In this document: positions 4,053-46,376 of the stretch, piece by piece | Position numbering within the stretch: position 1 is the first letter of the stretch | How the letters are laid out: every line of letters starts with the position of its first letter | Assembly: GCA_017517605.1 (NCBI GenBank) | Contig: JAFWYQ010000025.1 | Span: forward strand, 1-48,033 | Reading direction: 5' to 3' | DNA: 48,033 nt | Origin: Bacteroidaceae bacterium | Lineage (GTDB): Bacteria > Bacteroidota > Bacteroidia > Bacteroidales > Bacteroidaceae | Notes under the pieces: model-generated | The model's database searches: none | What the model was told of the DNA's origin: nothing | What the model saw: the letters and a program-made list of their open reading frames with translations, nothing else | Position numbers and translations under genes: made by a program

Positions 4053-4084
4053 CTTGGCCGTCTGAAAACTTCTGCGTACTTTTG
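4053..4084 (+). promoter_or_regulatory. Bacteroidetes-type promoter driving the first HU-HIG gene
   Basis: CTTG (4053-4056), 20 bp, TACTTTTG (4077-4084). Transcription from near 4091 would give a leader of about 440 nt before the ATG at 4529, and that leader contains the whole palindromic array at 4252-4412. Confidence 0.7.
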
Positions 4085-4251
4085 TGGCAGTTATCGCAAC
4101 CAAGTCCGTGGGACGGCCACAGAGAGGAAGTATCCGCCTCCGCACAACCGCCGCAGGAGGCACGCAGAGAGAGACGCACTCCCACAGGCACGCAAGCTAA
4201 CTGCCGCTCATTGAAAGACTTACGGGGCATTCGGCGTGGAATTACCCCGCC

Positions 4252-4412
4252 CTCTGCTGAGGAATTTCCCTCCCCCTCGCAGAGGGCACCCAAACGCCTC
4301 CGCGGAGACATCCCCAACGCCTCCGCGGAGGCATCATCAACGCCTCCGCGGAGGCATCGTCAATGCCTCCGCGGAGGCATTCGAGGTCCCTCCGCGGAGG
4401 CATTCAGCCCCC
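4252..4412. repeat. 23-bp tandem array with palindromic core CTCCGCGGAG
   Basis: Perfect cores CTCCGCGGAG start at 4298, 4321, 4344, 4367 and 4390, an exact 23-bp spacing. Two decayed units keep the same phase upstream (CTCTGCTGAG at 4252, CCTCGCAGAG at 4275). The fourth perfect unit extends to a 20-bp palindrome, AATGCCTCCGCGGAGGCATT. The array ends 116 bp before the HU-HIG start codon, in a gap of 639 bp (3890-4528) that otherwise holds only the divergent promoters and an inverted repeat. The open frames across it are periodic artefacts. Confidence 0.95.
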
Positions 4413-4528: not shown

Positions 4529-5047
4529 ATGAGTATCAAATTTAATCTCATTGAGCGAGCCAATCCGAACAATCCGGAAGGGCCCAAGAAATGGTACGCA
4601 GTACCCAGTAGCGAATCCCCCCTGACAGGCAAGGCCATGACCCGCGCAGCCACGGCCAACACCTCCACGGCAGCCATCGAGATGGAAGCCGCCATGGAGC
4701 ACCTCGCCGCCTTCATCCCACAGCAACTGCTGCAGGGGCACACGGTCAAGGTCCCCGGCCTCGGCAGCTTCCGCATCTCCTTCAAGAGCAAGGGCACAGA
4801 GTCGGTGGCCGACTTCAACGCCAGCGCCATGATCAGTGAACCGCGAATCATGTTCACACCCGACAAGGCACTGCGCAACAGCGTCATCCCCAACCTCGTC
4901 TTCGAGAACGGAGGACTGCTGAAGGACGGCGTGCGCTACGCCACCATGGCCGACTACCTCAAGGCAACAGGCAGCGGCTCCGCAGGCACAGGCGGCGAAG
5001 GCGACTCCGGCAACAACAGCGGAGCCACCGGCGGTAACCCCCTCTGA
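4529..5047 (+). CDS. HU-HIG family DNA-binding protein with Gly-rich tail (paralogue 1)
   Basis: A 172-aa protein of the Bacteroidetes HU-related group (TIGR01201-like; HU-HIG, HU fused to wHTH, Ig or glycine-rich tail). Residues 1-135 form the HU-like unit: KKWYAVP near 20-26, LAAFIPQQLLQGHTVKVPGLG, GSFRISFKSKGTES, ADFNASAMISEPRIMFTP, LVFENGG. The end is low complexity (GSGSAGTGGEGDSGNNSG) and stops in GATGGNPL. The paralogue at 45677-46207 has the same overall plan and an identical last eight residues. Canonical HU bends DNA; what these members bind is not established. The gene stands alone behind a promoter and a long repeat-filled leader, and is followed by a hairpin. Codon use is strongly G/C-ending. 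Confidence 0.9.
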   Translation: MSIKFNLIERANPNNPEGPKKWYAVPSSESPLTGKAMTRAATANTSTAAIEMEAAMEHLAAFIPQQLLQGHTVKVPGLGSFRISFKSKGTESVADFNASAMISEPRIMFTPDKALRNSVIPNLVFENGGLLKDGVRYATMADYLKATGSGSAGTGGEGDSGNNSGATGGNPL

Positions 5048-7450: not shown

Positions 7451-7479
7451 CCGATAACATAACACTCCCATCCCCCTCC

Positions 7480-7489
7480 CTCCGCGGAG
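7480..7489. promoter_or_regulatory. Single extra copy of the CTCCGCGGAG palindrome upstream of pdxA
   Basis: The ten-base core that is repeated at 4252-4412 occurs once more, 28 bp before the pdxA start codon and outside any gene. It may be a second site for whatever recognises the array, or chance. Confidence 0.4.
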
Positions 7490-7517
7490 ACACGGGGTGG
7501 GGCATACAGGAAACATT

Positions 7518-9422: not shown

Positions 9423-10367
9423 ATGACCATCATAGCCATCAGCCGCGCTTCCCGGTACTCGCCCAACCACATCGGCAACGATGCCGCCATCTTCAACGCA
9501 GTGGTGGACGAACTACGCCGCACAGGCCACACCGTGCTCCCGTGCACCGAGGAGGAACTCCTCCACATGCCCCTGCCCGAGGCCCCCCTCACCGTAGTGA
9601 CCATGGCACGCGACGGGCGCACCATCAGCCGCCTGCTCGAATGGGAATCTGCCGGGGCAACCGTCATCAACTCCCCACAAGGAGTGCTCAACTGTGTGCG
9701 CCGGCCCATGACCGAACTCCTCCTGCAACACGGCATACCTCACCCCAAGAGCTGGATTCTCACCACCGCAGAGCCTTTGCCTGCCGACCTCACCTTCCCC
9801 TGCTGGCTCAAGCGGGGCGATTCACACGCCATCGTGAAGGAAGATGTCTGCTATGCCGTCACCCCCGACGAGGCTCTACGCACCCTTGCCGACATGCACC
9901 GCCGAGGCATCCCTACGGCTGTGGCAAACGAACACTTGCCGGGCGACCTGGTGAAGTTCTACGGTGTGCAGGGCGACTCCTTCTTCCACTGGTTCTACCC
10001 CTCAGCCGCTTCCCACAGCAAGTTCGGACAGGAGGCCATCAACGGACAATCGCAAGGCCATCCCTTTTCCTCCTCCCTGCTGAAACAGTGTGCCGACACG
10101 GCCGCCCATGTATTGAACGTCCCCATTCACAGCAAGTTCGGCTTGGAGGCCATCAACGGACAGCCACAAGGCCATCCCTTTTCCCCCTCCCTGCTGAAAC
10201 AGTGTGCCGACACAGCCGCCCGCGCCCTCAGTGTCCCCATCTACGGCGGCGACGCAGTGGTATCTCCCGACGGAAGCCTACGCATCATCGACTTCAACGA
10301 TTTCCCCAGCTTTGCCCCCTGCCGCCCCGAAGCGGCCAAGGCAATAGCACGGAGAGTGACAAAATAA
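9423..10367 (+). CDS. ATP-grasp-like protein of the inositol-lipid cluster
   Basis: A 314-aa protein resembling ATP-grasp ligases: an N-terminal part with SRASRYSPNHIGND, a middle part with CWLKRGDSHAIVKEDV (the ATP-binding lysine region near 137-152), and a terminal IYGGDAVVSPDGSLRIIDFNDFPSF that matches the metal-binding end of the fold. ATP-grasp enzymes couple a carboxylate to an amine or thiol through an acyl-phosphate. The substrate here is unknown; nothing in a plain phosphatidylinositol route needs this chemistry. Oddity: residues about 198-273 are a 38-residue segment present twice in tandem, starting HSKFGQEAINGQ and HSKFGLEAINGQ. The start follows AGGAGGAAA, and the CDP-alcohol phosphotransferase follows after 9 bp. 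Confidence 0.7.
   Translation: MTIIAISRASRYSPNHIGNDAAIFNAVVDELRRTGHTVLPCTEEELLHMPLPEAPLTVVTMARDGRTISRLLEWESAGATVINSPQGVLNCVRRPMTELLLQHGIPHPKSWILTTAEPLPADLTFPCWLKRGDSHAIVKEDVCYAVTPDEALRTLADMHRRGIPTAVANEHLPGDLVKFYGVQGDSFFHWFYPSAASHSKFGQEAINGQSQGHPFSSSLLKQCADTAAHVLNVPIHSKFGLEAINGQPQGHPFSPSLLKQCADTAARALSVPIYGGDAVVSPDGSLRIIDFNDFPSFAPCRPEAAKAIARRVTK
10014..10241 (+). repeat. 114-bp in-frame tandem duplication inside the ATP-grasp gene
   Basis: Copies at 10014-10127 and 10128-10241 abut exactly. They are nearly identical in their first two thirds (both contain CTGAAACAGTGTGCCGACAC) and diverge toward the end. The duplicated block lies just before the IDFNDFPSF region. Confidence 0.9.
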
Positions 10368-12277: not shown

Positions 12278-12296
12278 GAGGGATATGGTGGGTATC

Positions 12297-12380
12297 TATA
12301 GTATCTATAGTCCCTATAGTTCCTATAGATCCTATAGTTCCTATAGTTCCTATAGTTCCTATAGTTCCTATAGCCCCTAT
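12297..12380. repeat. 9-bp tandem repeat (TATAGTTCC), intergenic copy with about nine units
   Basis: Nine units and a partial one, several being exactly TATAGTTCC, fill most of the gap between the membrane protein stop (12277) and the HAD start (12402). Because 9 is a multiple of 3, an upstream ATG at 12285 stays in frame with the HAD gene and would add a Tyr-Ser-Ser repeat. Confidence 0.95.
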
Positions 12381-12401
12381 AAAAAAAACAAAACTGAAAC
12401 T

Positions 12402-28520: not shown

Positions 28521-28650
28521 CTGTAAAGAATGTTACATTTGAATTTTAGGAAATGGAGAAAATTCACTTAATCCCATCCCTTTAATCCTTTGTTCGTGAG
28601 GTAATAGCATTTCTTCTGTTTGCCTTTGGGGAGTACCGCGATGGATGTAA

Positions 28651-28713
28651 AGTGTAGTGCGGCACTACGCTAAAGTGCAGTGCGGCACTATACAAAAGTG
28701 CAGTGCGGCACTA
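28651..28713. repeat. 23-bp tandem array, core AGTGCGGCACT
   Basis: Three units starting at 28651, 28674 and 28697 (exact 23-bp steps), each with AGTGYAGTGCGGCACTA. The core AGTGC-G-GCACT is symmetric about one base. No coding frame here is credible. Confidence 0.92.
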
Positions 28714-28952
28714 CACTTTTCATGGATAACGATACGTTTATGGACGAAGTGTGATTTGCGGACAGATAAATGGCACGCGGATGACGCGGAAGAAACGAAT
28801 GACCACTGATTTTTTTCTTTTTTTGACAGAAGTACAAAAGAACAGAAGACTAACGTGCCGCATGGGTTAATGGCCGAATGGTCTCCGACTTTAGGCGAAA
28901 TGGCGTTAGGCGAGGAAAGGGGGAGCAAAAAGGCAACGAACGGTTAAGACAT

Positions 28953-29011
28953 AAAGGACGTACCTTTTTATATTAAAGGACGTACCTTTTCCTATTAAAG
29001 GACGTACCTTT
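28953..29011. repeat. 22-bp tandem array, core AAAGGACGTACCTTT
   Basis: Three identical 15-bp cores start at 28953, 28975 and 28997 (exact 22-bp steps). The arms AAAGG and CCTTT are symmetric around ACGTA. The array lies 88 bp past the HD-protein stop codon (its 3' side). Confidence 0.92.
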
Positions 29012-34662: not shown

Positions 34663-34899
34663 GGGTCAGTCAGCCCCCCGGTTGTTAAATATAGAATGAC
34701 AGGAGACCGTCAGACACTCAATATGCTCATTGGCCATTTAACATAAGTTCATTGGCCATTTAATATAGGTTCATTGGCCATTTAATATAAGTTCATTGGC
34801 ACTTTAATATAAGTTCATTGGCACTTGCACTTATTCCGTATTCCAGATGGTCTTTGGTAAAGGTCCAAAAGGGACGCAACTGACTTTTCGGACTGACCC
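34663..34899. repeat. Element bounded by 9-bp inverted repeats GGGTCAGTC
   Basis: GGGTCAGTC (34663-34671) begins just after the M48 stop and GACTGACCC (34891-34899) ends 237 bp later. The 22-bp array at 34725-34829 is inside. Might be a small mobile element or a closing stem; no target duplication is obvious. Confidence 0.5.
34725..34829. repeat. 22-bp tandem array, unit beginning GTTCATTGGCCATTTAA
   Basis: Five units start at 34725, 34747, 34769, 34791 and 34813, exact 22-bp steps. The first three have the palindrome TGGCCA; the last two have TTGGCACTT instead. It lies in the gap between the convergent M48 and rng genes. Confidence 0.95.
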
Positions 34900-36822: not shown

Positions 36823-37101
36823 TTAGTCTTCCTTTACTGAAATGGTGAAAGTCTTTGCAGGCTTGAAAGAAGGAATGTTGTGCTCGGGGATGATGATTGT
36901 AGTGTTCTTAGAGATGTTGCGAGCTGTCTTCTGTGCTCTTTTCTTCACTACGAAGCTACCAAATCCGCGGAGATATACATTCTCACCATTTGACATAGTT
37001 TCTTTTACTGTGGCCATGAAAGCCTCGATGGTGTTCAATACAGTGACCTTGTCAATACCTGTATTCTTGTTAATTTCGTTTACAATATCAGCTTTAGTCA
37101 T
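36823..37101 (-). CDS. HU-family DNA-binding protein
   Basis: Canonical-length HU, 92 aa, a nucleoid protein that bends DNA as a dimer. MTKADIVNEINKNTGI leads the helical body, then RGFGSFVVKKRAQKTARN begins the beta arm. At the arm tip the usual intercalating Pro (RNP) is Ile (RNIS), as in the common Bacteroidetes HU. The ATG at 37101 matches the family start; a longer ORF start at 37194 lies upstream of a probable -7 element (TATATTTG on the minus strand, 37149-37156). Different from the two Gly-tailed HU-HIG genes. Confidence 0.95.
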   Translation of the reverse strand: MTKADIVNEINKNTGIDKVTVLNTIEAFMATVKETMSNGENVYLRGFGSFVVKKRAQKTARNISKNTTIIIPEHNIPSFKPAKTFTISVKED

Positions 37102-45283: not shown

Positions 45284-45335
45284 ATCCCACGTGTGGATTA
45301 CCTTCGAGAGGGGTACCCGCGTGGGGTATTTTTTG
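45284..45335 (+). terminator. Rho-independent terminator after the lipoprotein gene
   Basis: TATCCCACG near 45284 pairs with CGTGGGGTA ending at 45328 (one G-U pair), followed by an oligo-T run. It isolates the following array and HU-HIG gene from upstream transcription. The rest of 45336-45468 has no gene. Confidence 0.75.
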
Positions 45336-45468
45336 CAAAGCATGGAGACTGTTAACCCCGATTGTATAACCCCACCGCCAAGTCCGCCGAAAGGAGCGGA
45401 AGTCCGTAGCGCGGCACACACCACCACCCGAAACCTTCCCGAAGAGAGACCACGGAGGGAGGGGAAAT

Positions 45469-45612
45469 GACATCCCCGACGTCACCATATAGGACATCCC
45501 CGACGTCACTATACATGACATCCCCGACGTCACTATACATGACATCCCCGACGTCATTATGCATGACATCCCCGACGTCATTATGCATGACATCCCCGAC
45601 GTCATTTGGAAC
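45469..45612. repeat. 24-bp tandem array, core GACATCCCCGACGTCA
   Basis: Six identical 16-bp cores start at 45469, 45493, 45517, 45541, 45565 and 45589, exact 24-bp steps. The core holds the palindrome GACGTC; the spacer in the later units is YTATRCAT, itself near-palindromic. The array ends 64 bp before the second HU-HIG start codon. The minus-strand frame across it gives an eight-residue repeat and is not a gene. Confidence 0.97.
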
Positions 45613-45676
45613 CACATCAAGGGACGGTTGAAGGTGAAATGTTGGACCCTATTATTTATTTAACAATCAGACGATT

Positions 45677-46207
45677 ATGGCAAAGTATAAATTAGTGCAG
45701 AAAGGCAAGCCTTTTGACAAGACTGCCCCTATGAAATGGTATGCAACCCCCATCAGTGAGAAGGCCCAGTCGGCCACGGCCACCACGCGTGCGGCTACGG
45801 AGAACACCACCACGGGTCCCACGGAGCTGGACGGCTCGTGCTACATCCTGCGCCGCTATGTGGAGAACATGCTCCTGCTGGGACACATCGCCACCATCCC
45901 TTACTTCGGCACCCTGCGCATCACCTTCAAGAGCAGCGGTGTGGAGAAGATAACCGACTTCAATGCCGGCGAGATGATCAAGGAGCCGCGCATCCTGTTC
46001 ACCCCCTCCAAGGAGTTCCGCGAGGCGGTCATCAACAAGCTGACCTTCGAGTGCGGCGGTGTCATTGCCGACGGCATCACCTACGGCAGTGTCAAGAACT
46101 ACCGCACCGCCATCGGCGAAATCGCTCCCGATGACGGTGGCTCTACTGACGGTGGCTCCGATGACGGTGGCGGCAGCGGCGGCGCTACAGGCGGCAATCC
46201 GCTGTAA
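45677..46207 (+). CDS. HU-HIG family DNA-binding protein with Gly-rich tail (paralogue 2)
   Basis: 176 aa, paralogue of 4529-5047. Shared landmarks: MKWYATP, TTRAATENTTT, LLLGHIATIPYFGTLRITFKSSGVE, DFNAGEMIKEPRILFTP, LTFECGGV, and a tail of Gly, Asp and Ser (DDGGSTDGGSDDGGGSGG) that ends in the same GATGGNPL. The body differs at many positions, so this is an old duplication. It has its own repeat array upstream and a strong terminator behind it, so it is a single-gene unit like paralogue 1. I found no clear TAnnTTTG promoter in the 340 bp upstream. Codon use is G/C-rich relative to the neighbours. Confidence 0.9.
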   Translation: MAKYKLVQKGKPFDKTAPMKWYATPISEKAQSATATTRAATENTTTGPTELDGSCYILRRYVENMLLLGHIATIPYFGTLRITFKSSGVEKITDFNAGEMIKEPRILFTPSKEFREAVINKLTFECGGVIADGITYGSVKNYRTAIGEIAPDDGGSTDGGSDDGGGSGGATGGNPL

Positions 46208-46247: not shown

Positions 46248-46287
46248 GCAGGGGCAGACCCATGTGGGGTCTGCCCCTGCTGTTTTT
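46248..46287 (+). terminator. Rho-independent terminator after the second HU-HIG gene
   Basis: GCAGGGGCAGACCC (46248-46261) and GGGTCTGCCCCTGC (46267-46280) form a perfect 14-bp stem with a 5-nt loop, followed by TGTTTTT. Confidence 0.95.
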
Positions 46288-46295
46288 CTTATTGG

Positions 46296-46376
46296 GCTAA
46301 TTAGTCTTATTAGTCCAATTGGTCTAATTGGCCTTATTGGTCTGATTGGCCTTATGGGCCTGACAGGGCTAATGGG
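46296..46376. repeat. 9-bp imperfect tandem repeat (CTAATTGG-like)
   Basis: Nine 9-bp units from GCTAATTAG through TCTAATTGG, CCTTATTGG, TCTGATTGG to GCTAATGGG. It lies between the terminator and the serC promoter. No gene in 46288-46600. Confidence 0.85.

Follow-up and report, generated by a model that had tools for sequence, protein, structure and literature searches.

Palindromic repeat arrays linked to HU-HIG genes in Bacteroidaceae: the repeat period is tied to the protein more closely than the unit sequence

Two HU-HIG genes in the DNA presented above are each preceded by an array of short palindromic repeats, and the two arrays differ in unit and period, which raises the question of whether each protein has co-diverged with a private array of its own, as a sequence-only reading had proposed. 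HU-HIG proteins are HU-like chromosome proteins that have received little study. We report that their genes are linked to an array whose period follows the protein more closely than its unit sequence does, and that private, co-diverged pairs of protein and site are the less apt description. The DNA analysed (the window, 48,033 nucleotides) corresponds to contig C20; the assembly to which it belongs totals 2.97 Mb over 134 contigs and is 80.5% complete, and the nearest public-genome loci found were ruminant metagenome-assembled genomes (MAGs) labelled Bacteroidaceae. Genes were called using an in-house hexamer caller and the HU-HIG clades (KWY, YEFYE and IKQE) were set by motif.

The array upstream of HU-HIG gene 2 (45467-45605, forward strand, six dyad units) was predicted by Tandem Repeats Finder at 45467-45604 (period 24, 5.8 copies, 94% match, score 227), and the 17-mer GACATCCCCGACGTCAY is present six times without mismatch at 24-bp spacing (45469-45605) compared with a mean of 0.01 copies expected, while none of 100 shuffles reached six; the array is thus real. 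Some of its particulars differ from what had been described: the units are exact over the 17-mer in all six copies and vary in the remaining 7 bp, the dyad is ATGACaTCcccGAcGTCAT and not a GACGTC core alone, and the gap to the start codon is 71 bp (45605 to the ATG at 45677) instead of 64 bp. Gene 2 (45677-46207, forward strand) encodes a protein of 176 amino acids with a predicted HU core at approximately residues 28-122 and a Gly-rich, disordered tail. The AlphaFold model has a mean pLDDT of 84.9, with residues 153-173 under 50, and its best structural matches are HU/IHF chains, i.e. the predicted fold is that of HU; a search by sequence for solved structures gave none at the thresholds used. 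With 68.6 bits for gene 1 and 45.4 bits for gene 2, both window proteins exceed the curated threshold of PF18291 (HU-HIG), which is 26.2 bits, and both end in GATGGNPL, in keeping with the shared fold and tail end noted before. Approximately 100 bp before the array (45345-45460, forward strand) can be aligned with an orthologue in genome G009 that has a different array, and a motif scan upstream of gene 2 did not find the promoter motif TAnnTTTG. Further upstream (45284-45334, forward strand), 3' of a lipoprotein-like gene, two palindromes followed by a T run resemble by eye CCCCACGCGTGGGG, the 24-bp array unit of the HU-HIG gene at locus L009, and they are a possible terminator of the upstream gene. 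Downstream of gene 2 (46287-46363) there are 9-bp repeats around ATTAGTCTTATTGG, which are also present before an aminotransferase gene that carries the gene-2 unit (L029:6582-6611).

HU-HIG gene 1 (4529-5047, forward strand, 172 amino acids) is preceded by a 23-bp array with the dyad TGCCTCCGCGGAGGCA (4285-4403, forward strand; Tandem Repeats Finder), in which CCTCCGCGGAG is present in five copies spaced by 23 bp at 4297-4403, with a weaker sixth at 4251. On the 5' side of the array, a motif scan and an alignment with five orthologues identified a putative promoter (TTGG ... TACTTTTG; 4054-4084, forward strand) of a consensus, TAnnTTTG with an upstream TTG, that we take to be the Bacteroidales promoter type. 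Gene 1 and its orthologues have a divergent upstream neighbour, and in all of them the motif with its TTG is located ahead of the array. Its position is -362 to -364 in four species, -425 in a fifth (counted from a start codon that was placed 51 bp into the region of homology) and -452 for gene 1 itself.

No Rfam family reached its gathering score anywhere in the window, and four sub-threshold matches to miRNA families across five loci were taken as chance. We also considered that arrays of the gene-2 type are coding repeats; a period of 24 bp is in frame, but the clade norm of 23 bp is out of frame and this was rejected. Other features of the window include a canonical HU gene (36823-37101; PF00216, 92.4 bits) that lacks an array and carries a TAnnTTTG motif at -55, an array of 22-23 bp period in the gap where an M48 peptidase gene and an RNase E/G gene converge (34727-34822), and two more with this period between an HD-domain gene and an LptD gene (28648-28717 and 28952-29011). 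Moreover, a reading frame called as a HAD hydrolase opens with 9.6 copies of CTATAGTTC (12296-12381), and its start codon may be misplaced, and a called gene includes a 114-bp tandem duplication (10014-10260).

To what extent such arrays belong to HU-HIG genes was addressed in 356 kb of the same genome (the window, 20 contig stretches and a stretch of contig C12), where 37 of 40 arrays with a period of 19-27 bp are intergenic and 27 of these 37 have a period of 22 or 23 bp. Likewise, exact lags of 21, 22, 23 and 24 bp were detected in 5, 9, 7 and 3 of 182 gaps; among 259 genes the counts were 2, 0, 0 and 0, and shuffled sequences gave none. Other peaks were at 8-9, 14 and 44-46 bp. The genome has 20 HU-HIG matches, and among genes with a gap of at least 150 bp an array is present within 400 bp upstream of 10 of 17 HU/HU-HIG genes (including the canonical HU genes L017 and L018) and of 10 of 101 others (P = 2e-5). 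Across genomes, with duplicates removed and three genes with truncated starts (L073, L083 and L094) assigned to the clade by hand, 38 of 42 KWY genes are preceded, at no more than 400 bp, by an array of 22-24 bp period; the corresponding numbers are 9 of 20 for other HU-HIG genes and 8 of 32 for neighbouring control genes, seven of the latter eight sharing their gap, by coordinates, with an HU-HIG gene. The array is therefore linked to the gene family, and orthologues lacking it, which had been named as evidence against the proposal, account for four of the 42 clade genes.

Specifically, the public-genome loci (31 in total, from ruminant MAGs, Bacteroides, Phocaeicola, Caecibacteroides and one Bergeyella) include 26 with such an array; L101, L104 and L105 are without, L109 has a gap of 70 bp and L124 is truncated. 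Gene-2 homologues are present in all 15 genomes of the genus searched, and two separate searches both yielded one or more HU-HIG matches in every one of these genomes. Rows left out were L096-L099, L107, L113, L119 and L122 (same species as genomes of the G set and identical), L011 and L109 (short gaps), L017-L019 and the truncated L124; for the period analysis L104, L105, L243, L244, L258, L262, L270 and L272 (own-gene repeats, wrong picks or already listed) and L260 (low-complexity array) were also removed. In the later collection of loci, L248 and L256 yielded no gene and several loci were picked wrongly.

The arrays had been called private to their genes. Genome-wide searches were done with the units of gene 1, gene 2, their orthologues and B. 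heparinolyticus, leaving out the other eight HU-HIG arrays of the genome, and of the units followed only that of gene 1 forms an array at its own gene alone; those of gene 2, GAGACCCACCTGTGTCTC, GRGAACTTGATGTC and CTCGMATATRCGAG are not. The only array of the gene-1 unit in its own assembly is the one at gene 1; the window has one further site, with two mismatches, at 7477-7492, and matches in other genomes are near control level. A 25-base pattern of the gene-2 array (at most three mismatches) matches the window array and a second 24-bp array of 5.8 units on contig C12, between genes for a permease of the Asp-Al exchanger family and a class I/II aminotransferase. "Private" thus holds for gene 1 as tested, at the search sensitivity used and in its own assembly, and fails for gene 2, since the gene-1 array is single while the gene-2 unit is also found on C12. 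We likewise rejected the idea that the aminotransferase-gene array is a target conserved along with gene 2, as it is present in one of eight genomes holding a close homologue of that gene (none of the seven others). With at most two mismatches the gene-2 unit also forms runs of two and three units in G002, one of them before an AcrB-family gene.

In other genomes the units recur more widely. GRGAACTTGATGTC, the unit of the gene-1 arrays in G004 and G008, is matched exactly 25 times in the former and 14 times in the latter, once in G000 and never in the remaining 12 genomes, and runs of at least two units are located at five (G004) and four (G008) loci besides gene 1. GAGACCCACCTGTGTCTC is the gene-1 unit of G002 and G009, with runs at two further loci in each, and it also forms runs at three loci in G004 and five in G008, although gene 1 there uses another unit. 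In B. heparinolyticus, CTCGMATATRCGAG (one mismatch) gave 38 matches in forward and 14 in reverse orientation, with part of the sites counted in both, compared with one for the reversed control; this one unit is common to three HU-HIG leaders, the third gene being identified by eye via the KWY motif, and to eight other loci between called genes. Pfam-confirmed neighbours of the dispersed gene-1-unit arrays of G002/G009 or G004/G008 include TopA, RuvA, RecR, RecJ and MgsA. Several such arrays (L156, L157, L160, L162 and L163) adjoin genes for DNA topology or repair. By eye, dispersed gene-1 units appeared to share one orientation with respect to the gene that follows, and those of B. heparinolyticus did not. 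In five gaps (L157, L159, L162, L285 and L290) arrays of two different units are adjacent, mostly both with a 23-bp period, and these composite gaps look as if one unit type replaces another.

If protein and site had co-diverged, unit sequences should follow the protein, and this is so in part. The units differ between the HU-HIG arrays of the genome, with the exception of one similar pair (L001/L003), but an 82%-identical orthologue of gene 2 (L067) with nearly the same HU core has a different unit, ATGAGGTCTCGGTCTCAT, in the same place, and approximately 100 bp before its array can still be aligned with the region upstream of gene 2; a run of three ATGAGGTCTCGGTCTCAT units is also present in G004, away from any called HU-HIG gene. 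Unit similarity rises with protein identity, weakly (rho 0.28, 0 of 2000 permutations), and a near-identical 16-mer is shared by none of 336 pairs below 25% identity and by 39% of the 23 pairs above 75%; yet L069 and L081 (69% identical) share GAGACCCACCTGTGTCTC while L070 and L081 (76%) do not. The unit sequence turns over fast, and what follows the protein instead is the period. Among 59 array-bearing HU-HIG genes it is 23 bp in 28 of 36 KWY genes (22 bp in four and 24 bp in four), 22 bp in all five YEFYE genes and 21 bp in all four IKQE genes, and it ranges between 20 and 24 bp in the 14 unclassified. Protein identity correlates with similarity in period (rho 0.54 across 1600 gene pairs whose units are unrelated, a value reached in 0 of 5000 permutations); the repeat period goes with the protein clade, outlasting the turnover of letters, and it may simply be inherited with the gene by descent.

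With respect to whether the dyads act on DNA or RNA, 54 arrays hold 77 even- and 68 odd-centred dyads compared with means of 21.5 and 21.1 in 200 unit-permuted controls. Dyads were selected on their outer arms only, so that the central pairs are unselected, and these are complementary in 56% and 75% of even-centred and in 34% and 31% of odd-centred dyads. Mismatches on the sense strand comprise 26 G-T and 42 A-C, and double changes within arrays are complementary in 5 of 13 cases where approximately one third is expected by chance. For even-centred units these data lean towards a dyad on DNA, and nothing is decided for the rest. Considering the promoter, 15 of the 47 genes with an array carry the TAnnTTTG motif on its upstream side alone, nine on its downstream side alone (six genes of other clades and three KWY), one on both sides and 22 on neither; 20 of these 22 sit behind a co-directional gene, and L013 and L095 have the motif within the array span. 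For 14 of 15 array-less genes the motif is within the last 400 bp. Within the KWY clade the motif, when seen, mostly lies ahead of the array, which suggests that in many clade members the array would be part of a transcribed 5' leader.

We tentatively favour, at rather less than even chances, that the array is an old cis-element of the KWY HU-HIG clade, which in several genomes is one copy of a dispersed family of palindromic arrays, and that HU-HIG dimers read dyad and spacing over letters, with the leader copy giving feedback. Dimers would occupy successive units, recognising DNA shape more than exact bases, and array copies elsewhere would be further binding sites or decoys; through the leader copy the protein might repress its own synthesis, such that its level would follow the number of free arrays. 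Feedback via the leader array is our best guess at its function. The association with the gene family, the excess of dyads, the clade-bound period, the sharing of units in trans, the different units found with nearly identical HU cores and the HU fold count for this reading, while the gene-1 unit having no second array in its own assembly, the arrays in G004 and G008 whose unit is foreign to gene 1 of these genomes, a period that descent of the gene might explain, the density result given below (P = 0.13), the compensatory changes (5 of 13), the motif downstream only in 9 of 47 and the arrays at 10 of 101 ordinary genes count against it. An extension, which we consider doubtful, is that the HU-like proteins of Bacteroidota form a set for which a DNA address consists of dyad and spacing (periods of 21, 22 or 23-24 bp) and not of letters, each clade assembling chromosome-wide on arrays of its own period and the leader copy setting dosage.

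Several of the same observations fit REP-like extragenic palindromic repeats that are kept in HU-HIG gaps for mRNA stability, attenuation or long leaders and are not bound by HU-HIG, a reading that is unlikely, if to be taken seriously. The arrays are nearly all intergenic, the same unit is found at unrelated loci and the array before the aminotransferase gene is limited to one genome of eight. Moreover, array density does not track array-bearing KWY genes across genomes: excluding G006 and G007 (under 15 kb sampled), there are 15 dispersed arrays in 369 kb of genomes where no array-bearing KWY gene was found and 45 in 683 kb of the others (P = 0.13), and G010, among the former, has nine in 100 kb, which does not help our hypothesis. 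This test is weak because some genomes without KWY arrays carry 22-bp arrays at other HU-HIG genes (for example G010, at locus L263). That the arrays are strongly enriched before HU-HIG genes, with a period bound to the clade of the protein, speaks against REP-like repeats, and repeats driven by a Y1 transposase of the RAYT type were rejected, as 10 of 15 genomes gave no Y1_Tnp match.

Control at the RNA level, in which the transcribed array forms a row of hairpins that HU-HIG, a ribonuclease or Rho responds to, would accommodate the 15 of 47 genes whose motif lies ahead of the array and nowhere else, the far-upstream motif of the four gene-1 orthologues, the co-directional gene ahead of most motif-less ones, and the loop-like, non-complementary centres of odd-centred dyads; G-T not exceeding A-C on the sense strand, the complementary innermost pairs of even-centred dyads and the lack of any Rfam family at gathering score in the window make it improbable. 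We give still less credence to the original proposal, in which the unit sequence would direct every HU-HIG paralogue to its own array and the two would form a co-diverged, self-addressing pair. Different units do precede most paralogues, the gene-1 unit does stay with gene 1 in its own assembly and unit sharing does rise with protein identity, but the gene-2 unit has its second locus on C12, three paralogues in B. heparinolyticus share one unit, nearly identical HU cores go with different units and the L069/L070/L081 comparison runs contrary to identity.

HU proteins are usually regarded as nearly sequence-blind, and an HU-like family tied to arrays with clade-specific spacing would give a first handle on the role of HU-HIG; it might also explain part of the approximately 22-bp intergenic arrays in these genomes, and is testable in culturable Bacteroides. 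The description of HU-HIG (PF18291), of the HU/IHF superfamily, mentions no linked array, and no account of HU-HIG-linked arrays was found in the open-access subset of the literature. With REPIN/RAYT (Pseudomonas; PMC3116915), the likeness is in dispersed extragenic palindromes, a copy flanking one gene family and unit types that differ between genomes, while the arrays described here are head-to-tail with a fixed period of 21-24 bp and the linked gene is HU-like instead of a Y1 transposase. The arrays are dispersed, repetitive extragenic palindromes as in REPIN/RAYT, and the 10 genomes without a Y1_Tnp match include G002 and G009, both with several arrays (assemblies 65-99% complete). Finally, the BIME/RIB-RIP elements of E. 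coli are extragenic palindromes bound by IHF, and if HU-HIG binds here the candidate parallel would be that of palindromes with a binder of the HU/IHF family; the difference is that here the array precedes the gene of its putative binder.
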